A stretch of DNA of 64,000 nt from an uncultured bacterium (GTDB lineage Bacteria; Desulfobacterota; GWC2-55-46), in NCBI GenBank assembly GCA_905339405.1, contig CAJPGC010000003.1, positions 1-64,000 on the forward strand, read 5' to 3'. Of the stretch, positions 6,397 through 62,411 are shown piece by piece (position 1 is the first letter of the stretch; each line of letters starts with the position of its first letter). The notes beneath the pieces were generated by a model. It saw only the letters and a list, made by a program, of their open reading frames with translations. It had not been told where the DNA came from and did no database searches. The translations under genes were made by a program, and so were the position numbers.

Positions 6397-7206
6397 TTAT
6401 TTACGCTTTTTTCTAGCGAAGAGGGATATTCCGGCAAGCCCGGCCCCGAGCAGTATGAGAGTTGAAGGCTCGGGCACCGGAGGCGTTGAGTGCCCTGATT
6501 CCGCGTCATGCGAGAACGGGGCGAACTCGTTTATATCGACGTCGATTATGCACTTCGTCTTGAGCGTCTTGTTGTAAAGGTCGAAGTGCAGCGTATAGTC
6601 CGTGTCAAGGCCTGAGATGTCTACCGTGAAAGCGGCGTAATACATGCCCTTGAACTTTCTCATGCTCAACGGCCCGTCATAGGACGACAGGTCTATAGAG
6701 CCGCCGGACTGTGCCCTGTCCTGCGTATTGTACTGGTCAATGAGGTTTTCCTCTTCGAACCTGAAACCGAACTCCGAGAAAAACGTCGGGAAAACCCCGT
6801 GCCTTGAAAGGTCGCCGGAGTCGAAGCCCTGTGTGGTGCACTTCTCAGGATATAAGCTGCAGATTGCTTCAAGTGGCGGCACTCCGTAGGTCATGTCCTC
6901 GGTTACGCGCACCGTCTGGTTGTTGAACTTGAACGTGCCCAGGTTTGAATCAGCCGGCCCTATTTTGGGGGATATGGCGGCAGATATGAAGTAATAGCCG
7001 CTCACGTCGTTTATGAGGCTTTCAGGGGTAAGATAGGCGAATAGAGTGAAAACGTTGTCGCTGGCCACTATGGTCTCCGTAGAGTAGTCATAGTACCCGC
7101 CAGCAACGTCCAGCTGAAGTTCCGGAACAGCATGGCTTCGAGTGCTTCCTATAAGAATGAACGCCGCCGCCAGAAAGGTTGTTAATGCTACCTTTATTCT
7201 ACCCAT
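6397..7206 (-). CDS. PEP-CTERM sorting-domain protein
   Basis: 269 residues from the ATG at 7206, chosen over an upstream in-frame start because CGGAGG lies 8 bases before it and because it gives a proper signal peptide (MGRIKVALTTFLAAAFIL, cleavage near SHA-VP). The C-terminus has the tripartite sorting signal: PPVPEPSTLILLG motif, a hydrophobic helix and a basic tail ARKKRK. Such proteins are exported by Sec and cut by exosortase (XrtA at 22182-23024). The middle part has no family I recognise; it contains a few cysteines and looks like a beta-rich surface domain. A strong sigma-54 promoter precedes it, so it is probably a PrsR target. Confidence 0.88.
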   Translation of the reverse strand: MGRIKVALTTFLAAAFILIGSTRSHAVPELQLDVAGGYYDYSTETIVASDNVFTLFAYLTPESLINDVSGYYFISAAISPKIGPADSNLGTFKFNNQTVRVTEDMTYGVPPLEAICSLYPEKCTTQGFDSGDLSRHGVFPTFFSEFGFRFEEENLIDQYNTQDRAQSGGSIDLSSYDGPLSMRKFKGMYYAAFTVDISGLDTDYTLHFDLYNKTLKTKCIIDVDINEFAPFSHDAESGHSTPPVPEPSTLILLGAGLAGISLFARKKRK

Positions 7207-7234
7207 ATGAAAATCCTCCGTTACTGATTTCTTT

Positions 7235-7250
7235 TGCAATAGATGTGCCA
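7235..7250 (-). promoter_or_regulatory. sigma-54 (RpoN) promoter of the first PEP-CTERM gene
   Basis: The minus strand reads TGGCAC-ATCTA-TTGCA, a full match to the -24/-12 consensus TGGCAC-N5-TTGC. The expected transcript start is near 7224, about 18 bases before the start codon and just ahead of the ribosome site. Confidence 0.85.
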
Positions 7251-7635
7251 CACGCCTGCTATTCGTAAGACTGTATTTTTAAAAGGAAAATTCTTGGCCG
7301 GGAAACTTCTCAAGCTGACGGATCCTGAAATGTGTAAAAAAAACCATACTCCGCGAGGGCATGACCGGGCAGAAAGAATAGCTTAAGAAAAAGGCCTTTT
7401 ATAATCAGCAGTTACGAGCAAGGGTATTTTACCTGCCTTTATAAAAACGGCTGATAGGCAGACCCAAAACGTGGATTTTCGTGAAGACGATATGATTTCG
7501 CTTAATTTCCGCTCCGAATTCTTTACAGGTTTGCCAGATTCTGTTGATTTTTTTTACACACATGAAGAAAATCGCCAGGCGGCATGCGGCCCCGGCAGGG
7601 GCAAAAGAACGCCGTCCTCACCTAGGAAGAAACAA

Positions 7636-7684: not shown

Positions 7685-8368
7685 ATGGGGATTATAAAAA
7701 TTGAAAAAGCCGGGAAGAACTTCAGCCTCGGCAAGACTATCATTCATGCCTTGAAAGGTGTCAGCCTTGAGATAGGAAAAGGCGAGTTCATGGCCATAGT
7801 CGGCCCCTCCGGAAGCGGCAAGTCAACCCTGCTGAACCTTATCGGCTGCATCGAACGCCCATCATCCGGCACGGTCATGATCGACGGCACTGATATCGGG
7901 TCACTTTCCCCGGACGAACTCGCTGAGATACGCTCCTCCAGGCTCGGCTTCATCTTCCAGTCCTTCAACCTCCTTCCGGTCCTTACCGTCGCTGAAAACG
8001 TCGAATATCCCCTGCACCTGGGGGGGGGCGAAAAGCGGACCAGGGCCGAGAAGGTCGCCGGGGTCCTCAAGGAAGTCGGTCTGGAGAGGTTCTCCTCCCA
8101 CAAGCCAGCGGAGCTGAGCGGCGGGCAGAGGCAGAGGGTCGCGATAGCCAGGGCGCTGGTAGGCTCCCCTTCCATAATACTGGCCGACGAGCCAACCGCC
8201 AACCTCGACCACAGGACCGGCGAAGAGATATTGAACCTGATGAAGGACATAAACAGGAAAATGGGCGCCACATTCGTATTCTCCACTCACGACCCCAAGA
8301 TAATGAACATCGCGGACAGAATGGTGGAGCTGAGGGACGGGGAGATAACTTTCGACCATGTATCTTAG
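7685..8368 (+). CDS. LolD/MacB-type ABC transporter ATP-binding protein
   Basis: 227 residues, the standard size. Walker A GPSGSGKSTLLNLIGC near 40, Q-loop FQSFNLLPVLTV, signature LSGGQRQRVAIARAL, Walker B IILADEPTANLD and H-loop STHD are all intact. The subfamily is that of LolD, MacB and FtsE, whose permeases have an FtsX domain and work on lipoproteins, lipids or peptides at the periplasmic side of the inner membrane instead of pumping through a channel. It overlaps the permease gene by 11 bases. First gene of a five-gene plus-strand unit with a LolA-like protein and an outer-membrane barrel. Confidence 0.92.
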   Translation: MGIIKIEKAGKNFSLGKTIIHALKGVSLEIGKGEFMAIVGPSGSGKSTLLNLIGCIERPSSGTVMIDGTDIGSLSPDELAEIRSSRLGFIFQSFNLLPVLTVAENVEYPLHLGGGEKRTRAEKVAGVLKEVGLERFSSHKPAELSGGQRQRVAIARALVGSPSIILADEPTANLDHRTGEEILNLMKDINRKMGATFVFSTHDPKIMNIADRMVELRDGEITFDHVS

Positions 8369-9578
8369 GCTGGCCTTCAGGAACATATTCAGGAACAAGG
8401 TGCGCTCCCTCATAACCCTCGGCGCTATCTCGTTCGGCTGCATCTCTCTCATCATAGCCGGGGGGTTCATCGAGAACACCTTCATACAGCTGAGGGAGAG
8501 CTACATAAGAAGCTTCCTCGGGCACATCCAGGTCTATAAGAAGGGCTTCCTCGAACAGGGGGTCGCGCGTCCGTTCGACTTCATGATATCGAACCCCGAC
8601 GAAGTCATTAAAAAGATAACAGACCACCCGCACGTCGTGGCCGCCACCCCGAGGCTGGAGTTCTCCGGGCTCCTCAGCACGGGCGAGACCACCGTATCGT
8701 TCATCGGCCAGGGCGTCAACCCCAAATGGGAAAACCAGATAAGCACGTTCGTCCAACTCGAAAAAGGGGAAAACCTCGCCGAGGGAGACACATACAAAAC
8801 GATACTAGGTAAGGGCCTGTCCGAAGCCCTGATGGCGAAGGCCGGCGACCCCCTCGTGCTCGTGGCGAACACAAAAAGCGGCGCGATAAACGCCCTCGAC
8901 ATGGAAGTCAAAGGGGTCTTTTTCACGAGCTCCAAGGCCTATGACGACAGGGCGCTTCGGGTGCCGGTGGAAGTGGCACAGAAGCTCCTCCATACCGATG
9001 ACATCCAGACCATAGTCGTCCTCCTCGACGATACCTCAGAGACGGACGCGGTCATCGCGGGTCTGAACGAGCGGTTCAAAAAAGACGGCCTGGACCTGGA
9101 GGTAAAGCCCTGGTACGATATGGCCGACTTCTACACCAAGACGGTTGACCTCTATAAAAGACAGTTCTTCGTCCTCAAACTCATCATAGGCATCGTAGTC
9201 GTCCTCAGCGTATTCAACACGATGAACATGGCCATCCTCGAGAGGATCGGCGAAGTGGGGACTATCATGGCCCTCGGAACGAAAAGAAGGGGGGTCGTAA
9301 CGCTTTTTCTGCTCGAGGGTCTCATTCTCGGCATCGTTGGCGGCGTCATAGGGGTGGCCTCTGGCTACCTGCTTGCCATGCTCATCTCGTACATAGGTAT
9401 TCCGATGCCGCCGCCCCCGGGAGCGACGATATACTGGACCGCCCAGATAGAGATGGTCCCGGCCATCTTCGCCTTCGCCTTCGTGCTGGCCATCGTCACC
9501 TCGGTCGTCTCTTCGTGCTACCCGGCAATCAAGGCCTCGAGGTTAGAGATAGCGGAGGCGTTACGGCACAACATATGA
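8358..9578 (+). CDS. LolC/LolE-type ABC transporter permease (FtsX family)
   Basis: 406 residues with the MacB/LolC layout: one membrane helix near the N-terminus (about 15-40), a large periplasmic domain (about 45-260), then three helices, the first in the segment with VFNTMNMAILERIGEVGTIM, a strongly conserved FtsX-family motif. Partner of the ATPase upstream. Its stop overlaps the next start (ATGA), so the LolA-like protein is translationally coupled. Together they resemble a lipoprotein- or lipid-extraction pump. The full LolCDE needs two permeases or a homodimer; only one permease gene is here, so it would act as a homodimer. Confidence 0.88.
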   Translation: MYLRLAFRNIFRNKVRSLITLGAISFGCISLIIAGGFIENTFIQLRESYIRSFLGHIQVYKKGFLEQGVARPFDFMISNPDEVIKKITDHPHVVAATPRLEFSGLLSTGETTVSFIGQGVNPKWENQISTFVQLEKGENLAEGDTYKTILGKGLSEALMAKAGDPLVLVANTKSGAINALDMEVKGVFFTSSKAYDDRALRVPVEVAQKLLHTDDIQTIVVLLDDTSETDAVIAGLNERFKKDGLDLEVKPWYDMADFYTKTVDLYKRQFFVLKLIIGIVVVLSVFNTMNMAILERIGEVGTIMALGTKRRGVVTLFLLEGLILGIVGGVIGVASGYLLAMLISYIGIPMPPPPGATIYWTAQIEMVPAIFAFAFVLAIVTSVVSSCYPAIKASRLEIAEALRHNI

Positions 9579-10330
9579 TGATGAAAATCACCTCATTCAT
9601 GACGGGCGCCGTACTCGGCTTCGGCCTCCTTTGCTCCCCGGCCCAGAGCGCGCCTCTTTCGGCCGACGAGATAGTCTCCAGGGCGGACGAGATAAGAAGC
9701 CCCCAGCTCGACTACACAGTCGACGTCAAGGTCACGAGCTCAAAGGCGGACAAGAGCGCGAATACGGCAAACTATGAAGTCCTCATCAAGGGCAAGGACA
9801 AGACTATAATAAAGACCCTTTCTCCCCAGCTCGACAGGGGGAGGACCCTTCTCATGCTTGGAAGGGACCTCTGGGCTTTTCTGCCCGACGTCTCCAAGCC
9901 TATAAGAATATCCCTTCAGCAGAGGCTAATAGGCGAGGTAGCGAACGGAGACATCGCGAGGGCGAACTTCTCTGGCGATTATTCCGCCTCGCTTTTGAAG
10001 ACCGAGCAGATCGGCGGGAAAAAGCATTTCGTGCTCGAGCTTAAGGCGAAAAGCGACGAAGTGACCTATGACAGAGTCATCTACTGGGTGAGAGCGGACA
10101 ATTACGCCCCCCATAAGGCGGAGTTCTACGCCATATCGGGCCGTCTCATAAAGACCTGCTCCTACGAGAGCTACAAGGAGCTTGCAGGAAAGAAAAGGCC
10201 CTCCAGGCTCGTGCTGAACGACCCCATCGTGAAAGGGCAGCTTTCGACCATCGAGTACTCGAACATGAAGGTCGAGGAGCTGCCCGGAAAACTGTTCACA
10301 AAAGACTATATGAAAAAAATCAAATACTGA
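9575..10330 (+). CDS. LolA-like outer membrane lipoprotein-sorting protein
   Basis: 251 residues from the ATG at 9575, which overlaps the permease stop; an in-frame start 20 codons upstream would lie inside the permease gene and spoil the signal peptide. Signal peptide with hydrophobic core (MTGAVLGFGLLCSPAQSAPL). The mature part has features of the LolA-like/COG2834 group: strands ending in TLLMLGRDLWAFLPDVSKPIRIS and the segment following it, as in periplasmic carriers that hold acyl chains in a half-barrel. Likely receives cargo from the ABC pump and passes it to the outer membrane. Cargo unknown. Confidence 0.8.
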   Translation: MMMKITSFMTGAVLGFGLLCSPAQSAPLSADEIVSRADEIRSPQLDYTVDVKVTSSKADKSANTANYEVLIKGKDKTIIKTLSPQLDRGRTLLMLGRDLWAFLPDVSKPIRISLQQRLIGEVANGDIARANFSGDYSASLLKTEQIGGKKHFVLELKAKSDEVTYDRVIYWVRADNYAPHKAEFYAISGRLIKTCSYESYKELAGKKRPSRLVLNDPIVKGQLSTIEYSNMKVEELPGKLFTKDYMKKIKY

Positions 10331-10335
10331 GGCCA

Positions 10336-12036
10336 ATGCGCAAGACCTCTTCAACTCCCCATTTCCGCTCTCTCATTGTGTTCGCCTTTCTCCTTACGCT
10401 GCTCCTGCCTGCGCTGTCCTTTTCCGAGGGGCGCAAGGCATCCGGCAGGGAAAAGCCTCACGAGGTGAAGGACATAAAGACCCTTTCCAGGAAGGACCGT
10501 ACCCGCGTATTCATCGACGTCGCTGGAAAGCCTGAATACAAGTTGAAGTCCCAGATGGACAAAAACCTGCTGCACATCGAGATGGAAAACAGCTCGCTAT
10601 CCCCGGCTGTGCAGAAGCTCTCGGCCGTGGACGACGGGAGGATAAAAACCATCCAGGCCCTCGAATACGGAAAATCCAGGGTGAGGATATCCGTTGAGAT
10701 GGAGACAGGCTTTGACACTGCCGTCTCTTACGATGACCGGGAGACCTTCATAATAACGGTCGACGTAAAGAGCGCGCCGGAGAAGGCCGCTGTCATCGAG
10801 AAACAAGATGAACCAAAGGGGCTCGGAAACCTCGGCATCGGCGGATACTTGAAGAACGAGACCGCCTACAGGCTCGCCGGTCAAAACGGCCTGACAAAGG
10901 TCAGGAACATCTTTTTCCTTTCATCGTCCGGAGAGCTTTTCACGGACACCTCTTTCGCGGCAAGCGGCAGGCTTGTTTACGACGCTGTCTTCGACCTGAC
11001 GGACAATTACCCGGCAAGCGTCGAGGACGACCAGGAGTTTGAAGCTGACCTGAGGGATTTTTACATCGACCACTCCAGGGGCGACTGGGACCTCAGGGCC
11101 GGAAAGCAGCAGATAGTCTGGGGAGAGGCTGTGGGCCTTTTCTTCGCCGACGCCGTGAACGCCAAGGACCTGAGGGAGTTCGTGCTCCCTGACTTCGACT
11201 ACATAAGGATCCCCCAGTGGGCTGCTGACGTCGAGTATTCAAAAGACGCCTTCCACCTGGAACTCATATGGATACCGGTGCTCGAGTTCAACAAGCTCGG
11301 TGAAGCGGGCTCCGAGTTCCCGGCCGCGGTACCGCTGCCTTCAGGCGTGGGCGCAGCCTCCAACGCTGTCAGAGAGCCCTCCAACTCGCTTGAGAACAGC
11401 GAAGCGGGCCTCCGGGCCTCTTATCTCGTGGACGGATGGGACCTCAGTATTTTCCACCTTTACACATGGGACAAATTCCCGGCCAACGAAAGAGCGGTGA
11501 CGACTCCGTTTCTCTATACCTTCAGCCCTGAGCACAGGAGGCTCAACATAACGGGCTTCACCTTCGCCAAGGAGATAAGCGACGTCATATTCAAGGGCGA
11601 GTTCATCTACAACAGCGGCAAATACTTCTCCGTGCTCGATGCGAGCGACTCCGACGGACTGGTAAGGAAAAATTATCTCGACTACCTCATAGGGCTCGAC
11701 TACACGTTCCTCGGGAACGTGGATTTCAATTTCCAGTTCATGCAGCGCGTTATCTTCGACTATGACCCGAGGATATTCAGGGAGGACGAGGTGCGCACTT
11801 CCGCGTCCGTCTGGCTCAAGACCGGGCTCCGCGACAACACCATAGAGCCGGAGATACTCATAATATCGAGCCTCCGGGAGCGCGACATGCTCATAAGGCC
11901 AAAGGTCACGTTCAAGTTCAGGCAGCGCTGGCAGGCCAAGATCGGCCTCGACGTGTTCGAGGGAGTCAGCGACGGCCTCTTCGGGCAGTACGCGGACAGG
12001 GACAGGGTCTACGCGGAGGCAAGGTATGACTTCTGA
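10336..12036 (+). CDS. AMIN-domain plus DUF1302-like outer-membrane barrel protein
   Basis: 566 residues, signal peptide at 1-32. Residues about 40-155 (KTLSRKDRTRVFIDVAGKPEYKL onward) look like an AMIN domain, a periplasmic module found in secretins and amidases that binds peptidoglycan or localises envelope proteins. From about 165 to the end is a beta-barrel with alternating strands and a terminal Phe. It contains RAGKQQIVWGEAVG and REFVLPDFDYIRIPQW, sequences characteristic of DUF1302 proteins. DUF1302 barrels usually sit next to RND or Lol-like exporters. The AMIN fusion is unusual. It begins 5 bases after the LolA-like gene, so it is probably the outer-membrane end of the same pathway. 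Confidence 0.72.
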   Translation: MRKTSSTPHFRSLIVFAFLLTLLLPALSFSEGRKASGREKPHEVKDIKTLSRKDRTRVFIDVAGKPEYKLKSQMDKNLLHIEMENSSLSPAVQKLSAVDDGRIKTIQALEYGKSRVRISVEMETGFDTAVSYDDRETFIITVDVKSAPEKAAVIEKQDEPKGLGNLGIGGYLKNETAYRLAGQNGLTKVRNIFFLSSSGELFTDTSFAASGRLVYDAVFDLTDNYPASVEDDQEFEADLRDFYIDHSRGDWDLRAGKQQIVWGEAVGLFFADAVNAKDLREFVLPDFDYIRIPQWAADVEYSKDAFHLELIWIPVLEFNKLGEAGSEFPAAVPLPSGVGAASNAVREPSNSLENSEAGLRASYLVDGWDLSIFHLYTWDKFPANERAVTTPFLYTFSPEHRRLNITGFTFAKEISDVIFKGEFIYNSGKYFSVLDASDSDGLVRKNYLDYLIGLDYTFLGNVDFNFQFMQRVIFDYDPRIFREDEVRTSASVWLKTGLRDNTIEPEILIISSLRERDMLIRPKVTFKFRQRWQAKIGLDVFEGVSDGLFGQYADRDRVYAEARYDF

Positions 12037-12053: not shown

Positions 12054-12914
12054 ATGGACCTGTATAAGGAATCTTTCAAAAGGAACCTCGGCCTCCTTGA
12101 TGAAGCAGAGCAAGAGAGGCTCAAGAACTGCAGGGTGGCCATAGCGGGGCTCGGCGGAGTGGGCGGGATACATCTCGTGACGCTGGCGAGGATAGGGGTC
12201 GGCGCGTTCAATATCGCCGACAACGACACCTTCGAGGCTGTAAACTTCAACCGCCAGTACGGGGCTTCGGTCAATACCATCGGAAGAAAAAAGACGGACG
12301 TCATGGCGGATATTGCCAGGTCGATAAACCCTGAGGCGAAGATCGAGCTCTTCTCGGAGGGCATCAATACCTCCAATATCGACAGGTTCCTCGAAGGCGT
12401 CGACTTCGCCGTCGACGCGATTGATTTTTTCGCGATAGACGCAAGGAGGCTTCTTTTCAGGAAAGCCCGGGAAAAAGGTATCTACGCCGCAACCTCCGGC
12501 CCGATAGGCTTCGGCGCAACGCTCCAGGTATTCTCCCCGGAGGGCATGGGCTTCGATGAATACTTCGGCATAACGGACGGCATGGAATACATCGAGAAGA
12601 TGATAGCGTTTTCAGTAGGGCTTACCCCAAGTCCGCTGCACCTCAAGTACATGGACCTGAAGCGCGTAGACCTCAAGGCCGGGACAGGGCCGTCTATTGC
12701 TTCAGCCTGCGCCCTGTGCGCCAATCTCGTGGCCACGGCGGCCGTAGACATACTGCTCAAACGCGGCGAAACAAAACCGGTCCCGCATTACTTCCAGTTC
12801 GACCCGTACAGACAGGTCTACAAAAAGGGGCGTCTGTGGATGGGCGGCAGCAACCCGCTGCAGAGGCTCAAGAGATGGTTCCTCCTGAAAAAGATAAAGC
12901 CTCTCATCGAATAA
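12054..12914 (+). CDS. ThiF/E1-like adenylyltransferase family protein
   Basis: 286 residues from the ATG at 12054, which has AGGAAGG in front; a TTG 15 bases upstream is less likely. The nucleotide-binding loop GLGGVGG is at about 32-38, followed by IADNDTFEAVNFNRQ, where the Arg contacts ATP phosphates in MoeB/ThiF/E1 enzymes, and VDAIDFFAIDARR. One CxxC (ACALC) is visible; I do not see the second cysteine pair of zinc-binding MoeB. These proteins adenylate a protein C-terminus or a small molecule. No partner ubiquitin-like protein is encoded nearby. Last gene of the plus-strand unit, ending 6 bases from the end of a convergent nitroreductase gene; the pair recalls the two halves of mycobacterial Rv1355c-like proteins. 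Confidence 0.85.
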   Translation: MDLYKESFKRNLGLLDEAEQERLKNCRVAIAGLGGVGGIHLVTLARIGVGAFNIADNDTFEAVNFNRQYGASVNTIGRKKTDVMADIARSINPEAKIELFSEGINTSNIDRFLEGVDFAVDAIDFFAIDARRLLFRKAREKGIYAATSGPIGFGATLQVFSPEGMGFDEYFGITDGMEYIEKMIAFSVGLTPSPLHLKYMDLKRVDLKAGTGPSIASACALCANLVATAAVDILLKRGETKPVPHYFQFDPYRQVYKKGRLWMGGSNPLQRLKRWFLLKKIKPLIE

Positions 12915-12920
12915 AAAACC

Positions 12921-13982
12921 TCAACCTTGCAGCAACACGTCAGTCAGAGGACGCCTTGAGGTCCTTGTCGAAGGCCTGCCCCCATAACCTATTCTGAACA
13001 GCATTATTAGCCCGTTCTTCTCCTCGAGCGGGAAGATGCGCTTAAGCCCGTCATAGACCGAAAGCAGCCTTTTTTTCTGGGCCTTGGTATACCCGCTCTC
13101 CCGCGCCTGAAGAAGCCTTGTCAGCAGAAAGGACATTCCGCCGAAAGGCTGCAGCGAAAGCCCGAGGGAAGCCGCTTCAAGCCAGACCCTTTCAAAAAAA
13201 CGGCCTCCCTCGATGAGGTCCACTGGCCGCGACTTGTCCATCACGATAAAGCCGATTGCCGAAGCCTTCAACAAAAGCTGGCTGTTGATCTTCCCCACCG
13301 CATAACTCAGGGCGAATTTGTTCAGGAAGTCCATGACGGGCCATGAGGACATAACCTTGAAAGCCGCCCTGTTCATGATGTTGAGCTCGAGCGTCCCCAC
13401 GGGCATGCCGTCTCTACGGGCCGCCTCCGCTTCGTTCCAGCGTATCCATTTGAAAAGCCCCTGATGGAGGAGCTTGTGCTCGAAGGAGGTCCTGTCGACG
13501 GAGGCCGCCAGGCGCGCTATTTCCTTCATGACCGGCCTGTCATCTATCAAGTGCAGGACGGCTCCTTGAGGGCGCGGAGTCGCCGAGAGGCTTTTCATGA
13601 CGTTTTCAGGCAGCGGCTTTCTCGAATACGGCTTCCTGTTCGTGCACCTTTCCCTGATGAACGGGTACAAGGGGCTTGAAGAGGGCTGTCCGGCTTTCAA
13701 TTTGATGACCGCTGCGGGAGAGTCCTTTTCCGAGGGGAAATACGAGACTGAAGGGACAAGGCCATAATGGACGGCGGCTGTCAGGATGTTCTCAATGACA
13801 GCCCCTATCGTGACATATGAGCCTGCGTGGCCGTAATCACCGAAAAAATCAGAGCGCACTTCGTCAAGTATGACATGGATGGAATCGCTTCCGAGCCTGA
13901 AGAACCACGGTTGGCAATTATCGATGGACGGGGCGAATGTGCCGGCGGAGACAAGTTTTTCCAGGACATCCCTTTGTATCAT
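12921..13982 (-). CDS. Nitroreductase-family flavoprotein
   Basis: 353 residues, longer than the usual 180-220. The N-terminus has LVSAGTFAPSIDNCQPWFF, the FMN-binding opening of nitroreductase-fold proteins, and the C-terminus has GLIMLFRIGYGGRPSTRTSRRPL, the matching closing strand. The extended middle and an 'APSxDNCQPW' start are those of the nitroreductase half of Rv1355c-type ThiF-nitroreductase fusions. Here the ThiF-like gene lies convergently with only 6 bases between the two stops. Substrate unknown; the fold does oxidation or reduction of flavins, azolines, nitro compounds or deiodination in other families. The start at 13982 has no strong ribosome site. Confidence 0.8.
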   Translation of the reverse strand: MIQRDVLEKLVSAGTFAPSIDNCQPWFFRLGSDSIHVILDEVRSDFFGDYGHAGSYVTIGAVIENILTAAVHYGLVPSVSYFPSEKDSPAAVIKLKAGQPSSSPLYPFIRERCTNRKPYSRKPLPENVMKSLSATPRPQGAVLHLIDDRPVMKEIARLAASVDRTSFEHKLLHQGLFKWIRWNEAEAARRDGMPVGTLELNIMNRAAFKVMSSWPVMDFLNKFALSYAVGKINSQLLLKASAIGFIVMDKSRPVDLIEGGRFFERVWLEAASLGLSLQPFGGMSFLLTRLLQARESGYTKAQKKRLLSVYDGLKRIFPLEEKNGLIMLFRIGYGGRPSTRTSRRPLTDVLLQG

Positions 13983-14016: not shown

Positions 14017-14050
14017 AATAAAAAGGGGCAAAGGTTTTCACCTTTGCCCC
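14017..14050 (-). terminator. Rho-independent terminator of the second PEP-CTERM gene
   Basis: On the minus strand GGGGCAAAGG and CCTTTGCCCC form a 10-pair stem with a 6-base loop, followed by TTTTTATTT. It lies 23 bases past the stop at 14074 and before the nitroreductase start. Confidence 0.9.
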
Positions 14051-14073
14051 CTTCGATGTATCTGTGTAACCGA

Positions 14074-14901
14074 TTACTTCTTGAACCTTCTCCTGCCCAT
14101 GAGGCCGAGGCCGATTATGCCGCTGCCAAGAAGAAGCAGGGTGCCAGGCTCAGGAACGACCGTCCCGATGACCGGGTCGTCGCTCTTTACAGGCCAGCCG
14201 TCGTTGCCGGGAGCCGAGAAGTCAGAGTTCAGGTACAGGTCCCTGCCGGGGCCGAAGGTGTCGACGCCGAACAAGGAAGCATACGCACCACCCGTTATCT
14301 CCAGGTAGCCCGTGCCGTTGCCGGTGAAGGGCGAAGTAAAGCCGGTTGCGGTAGAGTGCAGGGTCGCCGTGGTCTCGTCAAATCCTGCGGTGAACGGGTT
14401 ATCGAATGCGTGGATGCCCGTCGCACCGGCAGCCGACAGGAACAGGATGCCGTCGGTTACGCCCGCGCCCGGATAGGTCGCGTCGAAGTCCGGCGTGTTG
14501 TCGAGATAAAGGTTAAAACCACCGCCCGTGAAGTCCATCTCGAGCGCGCCCAGGAACGGGTTGAAAGCTACGTTGCCCGCGGTGTAGCCGGAGAACGTAC
14601 CCGTGAGCTCTTCCCCGTCCTTGCCGTCAAACCAAAGGAGGGTCGAATTCGAGTTGGCGGCGCTGATGGTCTTTATTTTCAAAATACCATCGAGCTGCTC
14701 GCCTGCTGCGTCAATGATGCCGTTCCCGTTGCCGGTACCAGGCGTCTCCTGCTCCCAGTTGATGAACTTGACTTCAACCGGACCGTTCCAGGGCGTCAGG
14801 AAGCTGAACGCCTGGGCCGGAGCCGCGGTACAGGCCGATGCGGCGCCTATAACAGCGGTTATCGCCAGTGCCCTTTCAAACTTGCTCCATTTCCTTTTCA
14901 T
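14074..14901 (-). CDS. PEP-CTERM sorting-domain protein
   Basis: 275 residues from the ATG at 14901, preceded by GGAGGGTAAT; the longer in-frame reading would lack a signal peptide at its end. Signal peptide ends near APAQA-FS. The body is rich in Gly, Thr, Asn and Asp, with few charges, as in many surface-exposed PEP-CTERM proteins. The C-terminus has VVPEPGTLLLLGSGIIGLG and then a basic tail RRRFKK, the exosortase recognition signal. Expected substrate of XrtA encoded at 22182-23024. It has its own sigma-54 promoter and terminator, so it is a single-gene unit. Confidence 0.9.
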   Translation of the reverse strand: MKRKWSKFERALAITAVIGAASACTAAPAQAFSFLTPWNGPVEVKFINWEQETPGTGNGNGIIDAAGEQLDGILKIKTISAANSNSTLLWFDGKDGEELTGTFSGYTAGNVAFNPFLGALEMDFTGGGFNLYLDNTPDFDATYPGAGVTDGILFLSAAGATGIHAFDNPFTAGFDETTATLHSTATGFTSPFTGNGTGYLEITGGAYASLFGVDTFGPGRDLYLNSDFSAPGNDGWPVKSDDPVIGTVVPEPGTLLLLGSGIIGLGLMGRRRFKK

Positions 14902-14973
14902 ATTACCCTCCTTATTTATTGAAACCTGACTTAGTTTTTTTTTGGGATTTGAATTGCGTTGGCTATATGAATA

Positions 14974-14989
14974 AGCAAATGCCATGCCA
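14974..14989 (-). promoter_or_regulatory. sigma-54 promoter of the second PEP-CTERM gene
   Basis: The minus strand reads TGGCAT-GGCAT-TTGCT: GG and GC have the exact 24/12 spacing and only one -24 base departs from consensus. Expected transcript start near 14963, giving a leader of about 62 bases. Apart from this, the 14902-15156 gap holds an imperfect palindrome around AGTTGTCAACT at 15058-15068. Confidence 0.7.
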
Positions 14990-15156: not shown

Positions 15157-17445
15157 TCAATTTTGAGGGTGGGCCTTGAGGACCTTCTCGAGCGCGGAGA
15201 CGATTGCGGGGTCGTATATCGAGCCTGCGTGCTTTTTGATGTCCTCGACGGCTTCTTGAGGCGAGATGGTCTTCCTGTACGGCCTTTCGGAGACCATCGC
15301 GCAGAAGGCGTCCACCACCGACAGTACCCTGGAGATGAATGGTATCTCTTCTCCGCGGAGCTTGTCCGGGTAGCCCTCTCCGTCCCACCTCTCATGGTGG
15401 TGCAGGATAATCTTTTTCACTTCCTCGGAGAACTCGAAGTTGTTAAGCAGGCCGAGAGTGTTGAACGGGTGCGCCTTCACGGTGCACTTCTCCGAATGGG
15501 TGAGCACCTTCTTGTCGAGCACGTTCTCGTCTATCGTCATCAGACCGAGGTCGTATATCATCGAGACGTACCGGGCCGTCTTCTTTTGCTCCTCGTCCGC
15601 GCCGAGCATGTCCATTGTCCTGGTGAGAAGGCTTGAGAAGACCCCTCTTTTTTTCTGGTATTTCTTCTGATAGGTCTTCTCGGCGTTCAGGAGGTTGTCG
15701 AAGGTGGAAACGAACTGCTTTAAGTCCTCGTCGAAATAGTCGCCGGAGTTCAACGTGTTGATGAAGTTTGTTATCCTCTCGCCCAGGATGGATGCCAGAG
15801 AAAGGTCCTGTTCGGTGAACGGGCCCGCCGTCTTCTTGTTGTTGAGGTTCAAGACCCCTATGACGTTGCCGTTTATCTTCAACGGGAGCGATATCAGGGA
15901 CTTGGTGTTGTACTGGGAGATGCTCTTCCTGCGGAACCTCGGGTCTGATTCGATGTCCTCTATGAGAAGGGGCTTGCCTTCAAGGGCGACCCAACCGGCC
16001 ACGCTGTCGCCGAATTTTATCCTCGTCCTGTTTACGACGTCCTCGCCGAGCCCCCGGGCGCTCTTTATCGTAAGCTCTCCGGTGAGCTTGTTGTCCAGCA
16101 TAATCGAGCAGGTATTGACGTCCAGGAGCTCAGAGATGAACTCCATGAATTTTTCCATGGTGAGATCGATTATGGCGTCGACCTTCTCCCTGGCGCTCTT
16201 GGGAACGTGAATCGTTATCTCGAAGGCTTCTGCCGTATTCTCGGCATGGAGGCCCCACTTGTGCACCTCTGCGGTCTTGCTCGCCAGGTAAAGCTTGAGC
16301 TTGTCCTTCTCCTGGCCGCCGCCGGACAGGTGGGACGGGGAGAACAGGAACGGGATGACCGCCTCGGGAAGCTTCCTCGAGGCGGTGAGCTTCACTTCGA
16401 CGTCGTCGTTCTCGTGCAGCCTTACGGCGATGCTGTCCCCGCTCTCGAGGTACTGGCACAGCCCCTCTATTATGTTTATGAAGAACTGCACTATCCTTAT
16501 CTTGTCGCCGACAACCTCGGTTATTGACTTGCTGAGGTCCGCGCTCAAGTGGATGTTCTTCCTCGACAGGGTCACGTTCAGGAGCTTTGAGCCGAGGACG
16601 TCGTTCTCCAATACCTCCGGGAGGCTCAAGACCGTCTTCTTTATGACCTTCATCTCGTTTTCGAGCATGAGGAAATCAAGGAGGTTCTCGACAAGCCCGA
16701 TGAGCTTGTCCGTCTCGTTCGATATGATGGACTGGAACTCCCTCTGCTCGCCTTTTATCTTGTCGGCGTTCTGAAGGTAGTAGATGGCGCCCTTTATCGA
16801 GTTGAGCGGGGTGCGAAGCTCGTGGGATATGCGCGTCAGGAATTCGGTCTTGACCACGTCCGTCTCGATAAGCTTCCTGTTGAGGTCTTCGAGCTCGGAA
16901 GCCTTGAAGCGGAGCTGGTTCATGAGGAACGCGTCGTCCAGGACGATGGCCGCCTGGTTGGCGAGTATCTTGATGAGCGAAAGCTCGTCTTCCTTGAATA
17001 CGCCGTCGGCCTTGTCGTTTATGTTGAGGACGCCGAGGAGCCTGTTCCTGCTTATGATGGGGCATGATATGAAGGAGCGGGTCTTGAACCTGTCCCTGCT
17101 CTTCCTCATCTTGAAGCGCTCGTCTTTTTCGATGTCCTCGACCAGCACCGGCGTCTTCTGCTCGGCCACGGTGCCGGCTATTCCCTCGCCGACCTTTACG
17201 CGGTACGACCTTATGAAATGGATGTCAATGCCCCTGGCCTCGAGAATGTAAAGCTCTTCCTTCTCGTTCAGGAGCATTATGGAGCCTTTTTCGGCGTTTG
17301 TGTAATTTATGGCGAGGTCGAGGATGAGGTTGGCTATCGCCCTGATGTTGTCGGTGGCGACGATGGCGCTGGAGATCTCATTGAGTATGGAAAGCTTTTT
17401 CTCAAAGAGCTTTGGGTTGTCCATCTTGAGCGCATTATATGGCAT
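15157..17445 (-). CDS. GAF-HisKA-GAF-HD hybrid signalling protein with degenerate kinase and HD parts
   Basis: 762 residues, no membrane helix. GAF1 (about 20-175), a HisKA-like helix pair with the phosphoacceptor-type His208 in TRISHELRTPLNSIKG, a poorly conserved ATPase region (about 300-415; no clear N, G1 or F box), GAF2 (about 425-565) and a C-terminal HD-GYP-like domain (about 620-755). The HD domain keeps HHE (683-685), GYP (691-693) and SVVDAF, but the eponymous HD pair reads YD (631-632). HD-GYP enzymes hydrolyse cyclic di-GMP; loss of one metal ligand makes activity doubtful. Probably a cytoplasmic sensor or scaffold. It follows the PEP-CTERM unit in the same direction but has its own sigma-54 promoter. 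Confidence 0.8.
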   Translation of the reverse strand: MPYNALKMDNPKLFEKKLSILNEISSAIVATDNIRAIANLILDLAINYTNAEKGSIMLLNEKEELYILEARGIDIHFIRSYRVKVGEGIAGTVAEQKTPVLVEDIEKDERFKMRKSRDRFKTRSFISCPIISRNRLLGVLNINDKADGVFKEDELSLIKILANQAAIVLDDAFLMNQLRFKASELEDLNRKLIETDVVKTEFLTRISHELRTPLNSIKGAIYYLQNADKIKGEQREFQSIISNETDKLIGLVENLLDFLMLENEMKVIKKTVLSLPEVLENDVLGSKLLNVTLSRKNIHLSADLSKSITEVVGDKIRIVQFFINIIEGLCQYLESGDSIAVRLHENDDVEVKLTASRKLPEAVIPFLFSPSHLSGGGQEKDKLKLYLASKTAEVHKWGLHAENTAEAFEITIHVPKSAREKVDAIIDLTMEKFMEFISELLDVNTCSIMLDNKLTGELTIKSARGLGEDVVNRTRIKFGDSVAGWVALEGKPLLIEDIESDPRFRRKSISQYNTKSLISLPLKINGNVIGVLNLNNKKTAGPFTEQDLSLASILGERITNFINTLNSGDYFDEDLKQFVSTFDNLLNAEKTYQKKYQKKRGVFSSLLTRTMDMLGADEEQKKTARYVSMIYDLGLMTIDENVLDKKVLTHSEKCTVKAHPFNTLGLLNNFEFSEEVKKIILHHHERWDGEGYPDKLRGEEIPFISRVLSVVDAFCAMVSERPYRKTISPQEAVEDIKKHAGSIYDPAIVSALEKVLKAHPQN

Positions 17446-21549: not shown

Positions 21550-22185
21550 TCAATGTGGTAGAAATTCCTCGATAACGGGATAAAAATCATTTATGAACCT
21601 GTAGCCCGCTTTTTCCCCGGCCGCGCCCTCGTCTCCGGAAGCCATCGAAATTCTGATGAAGGCCGAATCCCTCCTGTTATGGAGCATGGAATTCGTTATC
21701 TCCAGCAGCTTTAGAGAATACTCGTCGGATATCTCAGTGCCCTTGACCCTGTACCAGTACAGGAACACCTCCCTGGATTCGCCCTTCTCATACACGGCCT
21801 TCACGATATTGAACTTTTTGCCGGGCACCGGCTCCACCGGCGTCCTCTCCTCGGAGACCTTGAACCATCCTGCGCCGGGCAAGCACTGCTTCGGCGAGTG
21901 GATACCCCCGCTCCCCTTCCCGCCGCTGTAATACCCGACGTAAAGCTCTATCGATTCGCCAGAGGGGCCCTTGTAACGCCTCGACATGTAGTCGCTGGGC
22001 TTCAGCACTTCGAGTATGCGGTCGCTGAAAGTAGATTCAGCGACGAGGCTCCAGCCGTTGTGCGCCAGCGGAAAATCCTTAAAAGGCTTCTTTATCGGGA
22101 TGCTCGTGTCCGCGTGAAGGTTGATGTATATCCCGGTAATGAGTATCAGAGCGCATATTATCAGGAACCTTGTCTTCTTAATCAT
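21550..22185 (-). CDS. epsI: EpsI, exosortase-associated protein
   Basis: 211 residues with an N-terminal membrane anchor (about 5-25) and a periplasmic DUF3485/EpsI domain. The diagnostic GGIHSPKQCLPGAGW is at about 93-107, and VYEKGESREVFLYWYRVKG follows. EpsI is encoded next to, or fused to, exosortases in many exopolysaccharide clusters; its biochemical role is not settled. The start overlaps the xrtA stop by 4 bases (ATGA), so both are made together. Confidence 0.95.
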   Translation of the reverse strand: MIKKTRFLIICALILITGIYINLHADTSIPIKKPFKDFPLAHNGWSLVAESTFSDRILEVLKPSDYMSRRYKGPSGESIELYVGYYSGGKGSGGIHSPKQCLPGAGWFKVSEERTPVEPVPGKKFNIVKAVYEKGESREVFLYWYRVKGTEISDEYSLKLLEITNSMLHNRRDSAFIRISMASGDEGAAGEKAGYRFINDFYPVIEEFLPH

Positions 22186-23024
22186 CTCCCCACCCGCCTT
22201 AGTATCATTCCGATGCCGACAAGCAGCGCTATGGCCAGCGCGAAGACCGCGATGCCCGCGAACTCGTGGAAAAACCCCTCAGCCGCCTTCGCGCCCCAGT
22301 ACTGCGCGAGCACCCCGGTAGAGACCACCCGTACGCCGTTGGCGAATACCGACACCGGTATCGCCGAAGCGACCAGCACGGCCCTCTTCCAGTTCCTGTC
22401 CTGCGTGACATAGGCGAAGGCGACCCCGAGGGCCACGAGAGATACGAGGGACCTTATGCCGCTGCACGCGTCCGCGACCTCAAGCTCGATATTCGGGAAC
22501 ATTATTATGTTCCCTTCGCGCCAGACGATTATCCCGAAAAGCTTCAACATGACGACCGAGTACTTGGTAATGAACAGCTTCAGCGGGAAGGCCACGGCGT
22601 CATATATGATGTAGGGTATCGGAACCGTGAAAAAAAGGTAGCCGAGCGGCAGCAGGAGGAGCCTGAATACCGCCTTGCCGAAAAGGTACAGGATTATGCC
22701 CGACGATATGATTATTATCGAGGAGCGCATGGTAAAGTATTCCGTACCGACGAAAGCCACGACAAGCAGCAGGAGCCCGCCGCAAAGGACCCATAACCCG
22801 TGGTTGCTCGGCTGGACCGGGGCCGCGTTCAGCTCCGCCATCCTCAGGTAGACGAAGTAGCCTGATATCAGCGGCACTATGAACCCGTGGGAGTAATTCG
22901 GGTCAGTGTACAATTCGGAGACCCATAAAGGGATTATGGGATAATACAGCGCGCCCAGGAGCGCCAGTATCACCAGGAGCTGCAGCTTGTGAGACTTGAT
23001 CGTGGCCGTCAGGTTGGCTTGCAT
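22182..23024 (-). CDS. xrtA: Exosortase A
   Basis: 280 residues, about eight membrane helices. The sortase-like triad is present: Cys187 in VADACSGIRSL, Arg232 in FANGVRV and His253 in FFHEFAG. SHGFIVPLISGYFVYL near 45-60 is the conserved N-terminal signature. It cleaves the PEP-CTERM signal of exported proteins at the outer face of the inner membrane, as a transpeptidase by analogy with sortase. Two candidate substrates are encoded at 6.4 and 14 kb. Missing in this copy is the EpsI fusion seen in some species; epsI is separate and coupled. Confidence 0.96.
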   Translation of the reverse strand: MQANLTATIKSHKLQLLVILALLGALYYPIIPLWVSELYTDPNYSHGFIVPLISGYFVYLRMAELNAAPVQPSNHGLWVLCGGLLLLVVAFVGTEYFTMRSSIIIISSGIILYLFGKAVFRLLLLPLGYLFFTVPIPYIIYDAVAFPLKLFITKYSVVMLKLFGIIVWREGNIIMFPNIELEVADACSGIRSLVSLVALGVAFAYVTQDRNWKRAVLVASAIPVSVFANGVRVVSTGVLAQYWGAKAAEGFFHEFAGIAVFALAIALLVGIGMILRRVGR

Positions 23025-61567: not shown

Positions 61568-62260
61568 CTATTCCTTTACCTGAGTGCGCCCGAGCTCTTC
61601 CGTCGCTTCGTGGAAAAGGGCGGGGTTTACGCTTGCCACAGCGGCCTCGATATCTTCTATCCCGCCGAGGTAAGGGGTCCTCTGTCCGTGATATTCGATG
61701 GTCGGACCTATGGGCTGAAAGAAAATACCCATCCTCTTGAGAAGAAGATACAGGCCCTTTGCCATGACCGTGTACCAGTGGGTCAGCCCTCTTTTCCTGC
61801 TTTCGATGTAGATGAGCTTGTAAAGCCCGATGACTATCTCGTGCCTGTTCCTTCTGTCGTTCGGCACCGAATGAAACTCCGGAGGAGCGTCCCCCTGGTC
61901 GTTATAGATGAAGTTGTCCTCGGCCCTTCGCCTGTACTCCTTTTTAAGGGCGAGCCTGGATATCTCGCCGAGCCTCTCCCTTTCTATCAGGGAGACGTCG
62001 CTTGAAAGGACGCAGTTCTTCTCGAGGGGGAACCCGTCCCCGGAATTCAGGATTATCCGGGCGGTGCCGATAAGCTCGCCCATTTCGTTGAACGCGCCGA
62101 AATGCACCGAATGGCGGTCGAAGGCGTCTATCTCGAGCCCATCCGGATGGTCCTCGGGTTTTTCAAAACCCCTTTCCTCGCAGTAGACCTTGTACCTGAG
62201 CCTGTAGACCTCTTCAAGCTCGACCGCGGAAGAAACCTTCTTGAAATGGATGGGAGCCAT
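61568..62260 (-). CDS. PEP-CTERM/exosortase-associated acyltransferase
   Basis: 230 residues from the ATG at 62260; an in-frame TTG at 62275 is possible too. ELEEVYRLRYKVYCEERGFEKPEDHPDG is the opening of the exosortase-linked acyltransferase family, related in fold to acyl-homoserine-lactone synthases. GELIGTARIIL, RLGEISRLALKKEYRR and VMAKGLYLLLKRMGIFFQPIGP follow. It probably transfers a fatty-acyl group to an amine; substrate unknown. It ends 3 bases before the histidine kinase gene and heads the minus-strand block. Confidence 0.9.
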   Translation of the reverse strand: MAPIHFKKVSSAVELEEVYRLRYKVYCEERGFEKPEDHPDGLEIDAFDRHSVHFGAFNEMGELIGTARIILNSGDGFPLEKNCVLSSDVSLIERERLGEISRLALKKEYRRRAEDNFIYNDQGDAPPEFHSVPNDRRNRHEIVIGLYKLIYIESRKRGLTHWYTVMAKGLYLLLKRMGIFFQPIGPTIEYHGQRTPYLGGIEDIEAAVASVNPALFHEATEELGRTQVKE

Positions 62261-62411
62261 GTGATAAAAACCCAATCTATGATTTAATAGCTAAAGCCAT
62301 CCTGATGGATGCCCTTCAGCCAATACTATTTATATTAAGCTTATCGTCAGTTTGAAGGCAAAATTATACACTTTTTTTGAACCGCACTCTATCGCAAAAA
62401 AAGGACCTCTC

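Follow-up and report, generated by a model that had tools for sequence, protein, structure and literature searches.

The convergent ThiF-like and nitroreductase genes between positions 12054 and 13982 of the window, i.e. the 64,000-nucleotide stretch analysed here (C3:1-64000 of a 2.65 Mb genome, G000 among the compared genomes), probably encode the cyclase and the flavin-dependent desaturase of an N-acyl oxazolone pathway, in which a FeeM-type enzyme would acylate the amino acid and an ABC/LolA/DUF1302 set would export the product. Oxazolone chemistry is known from other bacteria; the link to an exporter and the likely replacement of the flavin oxidase (FDO) gene are new. The chemistry of OxzAB, TyzACB, and TrzAS, which yield N-acyl oxazolones, is established, and each system has an N-acyltransferase of the FeeM fold (PMC12856293, PMC10404671). 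A preliminary description of this DNA had proposed a split counterpart of the fused protein Rv1355c, acting to activate and oxidise a substrate that bears a carboxylate. That chemistry comes close to the established oxazolone reactions, but the description had assigned no function, and Rv1355c is in fact TrzS, the tryptazolone synthase, by which N-acyl tryptophan is cyclised and desaturated (PMC12856293). OxzB is a similar ThiF-nitroreductase fusion, and TyzB and TyzC do the equivalent work as two proteins (PMC12856293, PMC10404671). We set the window proteins against OxzB, TyzB, and TyzC through family profiles.

The ThiF/E1-family protein (12054-12914, plus strand) matched the Pfam ThiF domain at 1.1e-45 and is a predicted cyclase of the PRK08223 type: it belongs to this stand-alone equivalog by score (398 bits, cut-off 266, residues 4-282). 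Fused families followed with 371 bits (PRK14851) and 303 bits (PRK14852), whereas the Rv1355c family (PRK07877) reached 60 bits. By its PRK08223 and PRK14851 scores, and by sharing a tree with the fused ThiFs, the protein groups with the cyclases of oxazolone systems. Residues Asp121, Arg67, and Lys80 were invariant across 7 sequences. The closest solved E1 by sequence was TcdA (4d7a, 1.9e-20), and in an alignment made with TcdA, not with TrzS, Asp121 pairs with the first Asp of the TcdA DAID motif; in TrzS, D217 is the conserved adenylation Asp of the cyclase. TcdA, a dehydratase, forms a ring in the threonylcarbamoyladenosine (t6A) of tRNA by an ATP-driven cyclisation, and the predicted ThiF reaction is of the same type, a comparison that the Stieleria authors have already drawn for such ThiF proteins. 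Judged from its sequence, the window ThiF is predicted to take an N-acyl amino acid as substrate and to adenylate and cyclise its carboxylate. Its nearest relative among named records was found in the metagenome-assembled genome 'Deltaproteobacteria bacterium GWA2_55_10' (78% identity).

The second gene (12921-13982, minus strand) encodes a predicted Acg/FDO-A-type flavin oxidase of 353 aa in the nitroreductase superfamily. It scored 228 bits against the Rv1355c family PRK07877 (residues 3-350), 215 against PRK14851, and 159 against the Acg family. The term 'Rv1355c-like' is unsupported for the ThiF protein, which is far closer to PRK08223 and PRK14851, and the pair falls outside the Rv1355c/TrzS equivalog itself (fused, ~720 aa, 476-bit cut-off), being two proteins of 60 and 228 bits. 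That both are relatives of the halves of fused ThiF-FDO proteins was nevertheless borne out by the PRK14851 and PRK07877 scores. The FDO model (pLDDT 96) aligned over its full extent with Acg 2YMV (Z 33.3, 296 residues, 2.2 A), which identifies the previously noted 'extended nitroreductase middle' as the Acg-type double domain. Superfamily, Acg-like lid, and a position next to ThiF are those of the FDOs in oxazolone systems. All 13 residues that are invariant among 47 FDOs are retained (13/13), and this was the single FDO of the Acg type found in the genome. Its predicted reaction is a desaturation, either of the N-acyl amino acid or of the corresponding oxazolone. An objection that an O2-dependent FDO could not operate in an anaerobe was dismissed for this host, since seven COX1-family matches in the genome make the use of O2 plausible.

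The acylating enzyme lies in the same window (61568-62275, minus strand) and had been missed in the preliminary description. It clears the cut-off of TIGR03694, the exosortase-system N-acyl amino acid synthase of the FeeM type, with 195 versus 112 bits, and matches PF21926 with 49 bits. Its model (pLDDT 90) resembled LasI, TofI, and FeeM (2G0B), i.e. the AHL-synthase/FeeM fold. Glu104 was invariant in 37 sequences and is probably equivalent to the Glu that is catalytic in FeeM and essential in Nas354. In the window's genome the gene sits 49 kb from the ThiF/FDO pair; elsewhere it adjoins the FDO gene (G022) or is divergent from the LolD gene (G037). Two weaker TIGR03694/FeeM-like genes are also present in the genome (G000:C42:51366-51602, L036, and G000:C33:38010-38321, L037).

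The three families were found to be distributed together. In 59 genomes, the window's own and 58 relatives, genes were called at >380 bits for ThiF, at >200 bits for FDO, and above the cut-off for TIGR03694. All three occurred in an identical set of 8/59 genomes (G000, G016, G022, G023, G029, G037, G039, and G050), for which the chance is ~5e-10 (4e-10 with N = 60) if genomes are taken as independent, which these related genomes are not. Exosortase was present in 25/59 genomes, so the trio tracks itself more closely than it tracks exosortase. Across the phylum (394 genomes), each of the 18 genomes with the FDO clade was among the 22 with the ThiF clade, and the acyltransferase (n = 19) overlapped with ThiF in 8 genomes where 1.1 were expected, again with genomes of shared ancestry treated as independent; the remaining 11/19 carried TIGR03694 without this ThiF. 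We also compared 80 ThiF loci from a genome collection (1.14 Mb in total, six of them from the window's relatives), of which 54 contained an FDO gene and 50 a FeeM-type gene. Pelotalea chapellei (L104), a cultured relative, carries ThiF and FDO together with two acyltransferase genes and a gene for an ABC ATPase. The ThiF/FDO pair co-occurs across phyla.

Both genes of the pair are intact, and their open reading frames run tail to tail with six bases (12915-12920) between the stop codons on opposite strands, in agreement with the preliminary description. Its envelope-transport operon was likewise recovered upstream, at 7685-12036, all on the plus strand: a LolD-like exporter ATPase (7685-8368; Pfam ABC_tran, TIGR02211 236 bits), a LolC/E-like (FtsX/MacB) permease (8358-9578; Pfam FtsX and MacB_PCD), a LolA-like periplasmic carrier (9575-10330; PF17131, 1.7e-47; listed from 9515, with an ATG near 9575 as the likelier start), and an AMIN + DUF1302 protein that is probably an outer-membrane barrel (10336-12036; PF06980, 1e-22, and PF11741, 4e-5). 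Only 17 bases, with a plausible ribosome-binding site (GAGGAAGG), separate the end of the DUF1302 gene from the ThiF start, and we therefore regard ThiF as the final gene of this operon. The FDO gene, on the opposite strand, cannot share its transcript. A near-perfect hairpin (GGGGCAAAGGT...ACCTTTGCCCC, ~14020-14055) with a T run on the minus strand lies right past the stop (14074) of a PEP-CTERM gene (14074-14985) and ahead of the FDO start. It is probably the terminator of the PEP-CTERM gene, in which case FDO likely has its own transcript. Promoter and terminator scans of the window gave counts no higher than chance, and an Rfam search of the whole window gave no match. The six-gene order LolD-LolE-LolA-DUF1302-ThiF-FDO recurred in 6 related genomes whose contigs are long enough and, in part, in a seventh, and is more than a chance arrangement.

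Linkage to this transport set extends to other ThiF loci. The LolA-like + DUF1302 pair was present in 26/80 loci, of which 17 had an MMPL gene, 7 a LolE-type permease (five of the window's relatives, L134, and L140), and none had both. Among the 59 genomes, LolA-like genes above the cut-off occurred about once per 2-Mb genome, so that 1.14 Mb should contain ~0.5 to 1 of them; this estimate is rough, given the different taxonomic make-up of the two sets and the common ancestry of the loci. We read these data as a dedicated export route with an exchangeable inner-membrane pump, either a LolE-type ABC transporter or MMPL. By gene linkage, the cargo may be an oxazolone, an acyl amino acid, or another compound. 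Compared with LolCDE/LolA lipoprotein sorting, the window set has an ATPase, a permease, and a periplasmic carrier of the same superfamilies, but it scores below the equivalog cut-offs (LolD 236/308 bits, LolCE 124/362 bits), stands alongside a DUF1302 barrel and lipid-synthesis genes, and has its pump replaced by MMPL in other ThiF loci. LolD/LolE-type proteins also serve other roles. Conserved next to the cyclase gene in Gram-negative bacteria, and with two pumps that can replace each other, the exporter offers a genetic handle on where the lipid is located.

The window as a whole is an XrtA/PEP-CTERM exopolysaccharide locus with XrtA (22182-23024, minus strand; TIGR03109 216 bits, cut-off 208; PF09721 4e-73), EpsI (21550-22185), an export protein, a chain-length determinant, and PrsT. 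A TIGR03008 CAAX-protease-like gene adjoins the acyltransferase, and PEP-CTERM genes stand at both edges of the export/ThiF/FDO block, at 6397-7251 (PF07589, NF038141) and 14074-14985 (PF07589, TIGR02595), both on the minus strand. That N-acyl amino acid synthases are linked to exosortase was reported in 2011 (Craig et al., as cited in later papers), and a methanotroph mutant of an exosortase-linked synthase gene has been built to test for an effect on a polysaccharide band. A keyword search of a literature collection returned no report joining oxazolone or ThiF with exosortase, the Stieleria papers being the nearest; in these, the same genes in a PEP-CTERM context are assigned to a proposed N-acyl dehydrotyrosine route (PMC7293339, PMC12479983). 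For some, at least, of the synthases associated with exosortases, the pathway proposed here would give their N-acyl amino acids a downstream use.

The split state of the pair had been seen as special and as derived from a fusion. Among 82 ThiFs, however, separate FDO genes (40, of which 8 were >600 bases away) outnumbered fusions (16), with 26 having none within reach, many on short contigs; TyzB and TyzC of M. tuberculosis are separate as well. In the unrooted ThiF tree, fused and split states required 2 changes, one of them at L118. The fused ThiFs form one clade with one reversal, and the window ThiF lies outside it among the split forms, so that an origin of the window pair by fission of a fused ancestor is unsupported. 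At L138 (9242-11956), acyltransferase, ThiF, and FDO form a single open reading frame; at L118 (9308-10891), a close relative, FeeM and ThiF share one frame with a separate FDO frame 4 bases on.

The FDO gene appears to have a history of its own, which had also been overlooked. The ThiF tree clusters the window ThiF with G029 and G023 (96/88), whereas in the FDO tree a 99/99 branch parts G000 and G050 from the FDOs of six other relatives. The inverted arrangement occurs in G000 and G050, and FDO is co-directional in the six others. AU tests on FDO rejected a placement of G000 within the six co-directional FDOs (p = 0.0008) and with G029 and G023 (p = 0.00014), and the ThiF data in turn rejected the FDO-tree grouping of G000 with L108 and L131 (p = 1e-7). 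This suggests that the original FDO was replaced by a distant FDO inserted in reverse orientation. We grade the replacement as likely and not proven, since the tested clades were partly picked with identities (35-41% vs 46-58%) already known and the FDO branches are long. Base composition gave no clear signal of a foreign FDO (GC3 0.69 vs 0.67-0.81 in the neighbours).

We hypothesize that the FeeM-family synthase would acylate an amino acid, probably an aromatic one, and that ThiF would adenylate the carboxylate of the product with ATP and close the 5-oxazolone ring, as modelled on TyzB, OxzB, and TrzS and similar to TcdA acting on t6A. FDO would use O2 to desaturate the alpha-beta bond with loss of two hydrogens, and the LolDE-type ABC transporter, the LolA-like carrier, and the DUF1302 barrel would carry the lipid product through the envelope into the layer made by the XrtA/PEP-CTERM exopolysaccharide locus. 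What the data show is the family assignment of the proteins, the conservation of active-site residues, and the linkage and co-distribution of the genes; from these the reactions, the substrate, and the transport of the product by the ABC/LolA/DUF1302 set are predicted. TyzACB (Rv2336, Rv2338c, and Rv2337c; tyrazolone of M. tuberculosis) similarly combines a separate ThiF cyclase, an Acg-like FDO, and a FeeM-fold acyltransferase near a lipid transporter gene, mmpL9, the product of which has been proposed as a possible transporter there (PMC10404671). In the window, by contrast, the ThiF and FDO genes converge, an acyltransferase of the TIGR03694 type lies 49 kb off, and an ABC/LolA/DUF1302 set fitting a two-membrane envelope stands in the transporter's place. 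TrzAS (Rv1356c and Rv1355c; tryptazolone) has the same two catalytic domains, and the window FDO scores 228 bits against the Rv1355c family, but the window proteins are unfused and ThiF is distant from that family. OxzAB of Pseudoalteromonas rubra and the PRK14851/PRK14852 fusions include the closest fused family for ThiF (PRK14851), yet the window proteins stand alone, outside the single fusion clade. The stieleriacine clusters of Stieleria (Planctomycetota) share a synthase (NAS), a ThiF annotated as TcdA-like dehydratase, a nitroreductase, a PEP-CTERM gene, and exopolysaccharide genes; they differ in having a methyltransferase, and in the window ThiF ends the ABC/LolA/DUF1302 operon.

The same enzymes may instead deliver an open-chain N-acyl-2,3-dehydroamino acid of the stieleriacine or thalassotalic-acid type, the oxazolone intermediate being hydrolysed before or after export. 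We hold this to be a possible but less likely outcome. Oxazolones hydrolyse readily (PMC12856293), Stieleria shares the PEP-CTERM/EPS context, and the combination of NAS, ThiF, and nitroreductase is present in Stieleria, Thalassotalea, and Massilia, in which no oxazolones were found. Against this, TyzACB and TrzAS did yield detectable tyrazolones and tryptazolones, and because extraction with acid or alcohol breaks the oxazolone ring, its absence in other bacteria may be an artefact (PMC12856293).

It is unlikely that FDO is a foreign gene outside the ThiF pathway, acting on another substrate while ThiF makes a saturated oxazolone or some other cyclised or adenylated product. The opposite strand, the conflict between the FDO and ThiF phylogenies (AU tests, p = 0.0008 and 0.00014), and the existence of ThiF loci that lack FDO are all in its favour, but the gene is the sole FDO of its type found in the genome, keeps the family-invariant residues, stays beside ThiF in 8/8 genomes carrying both, and is likewise inverted in G050. 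Hardly any weight can be given to a third reading, in which ThiF activates a protein or sulfur carrier in a MoeB/ThiF/E1 role next to a generic NAD(P)H-dependent nitroreductase by incidental adjacency. Both proteins do belong to these superfamilies, but the sulfur-carrier adenylyltransferase equivalogs scored 57-92 bits overall, far below their cut-offs (MoeB 72, cut-off 266; ThiF equivalogs 75, cut-off 275, and 92, cut-off 159), against 371-398 bits for the oxazolone-type families. Plain MoeB and a generic nitroreductase as best matches, which the preliminary description had named as its refutation, are ruled out by these scores, and the occurrence of the pair across phyla and the Acg double domain argue in the same direction.

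Under the preferred oxazolone pathway, a speculative and improbable extension is that the exported acyl oxazolone serves as an activated acylating agent and not as a signal or antibiotic. The ABC/LolA/DUF1302 set (or MMPL) would bring it to the surface, where the ring would react with hydroxyl or amino groups and lipid-tag the exopolysaccharide of the XrtA locus or PEP-CTERM proteins. Alcohols and water open oxazolones in vitro (PMC12856293), and together with the position of the genes within an exosortase locus this is compatible with such a role. The papers that describe acyl oxazolones name their role, location, and export as open questions (PMC12856293, PMC10404671).

Regulator genes of the c-di-GMP type lie near both the window pair and trzAS of M. 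tuberculosis. The gene at 15157-17445 (minus strand) encodes a histidine-kinase-like protein whose C-terminal part matches a family of c-di-GMP phosphodiesterases, and a homologue adjoins the module in G023 and G029. The beta- and gammaproteobacterial ThiF loci had no detectable FDO. Five such loci from Thauera, Ectothiorhodospira, and Methylophilaceae (L137, L142, L144, L146, and L149) have at least two TIGR03694-like genes and MMPL by ThiF, and mostly also LolA-like and DUF1302 genes; these loci may lead to saturated oxazolones or to a different cyclised product.
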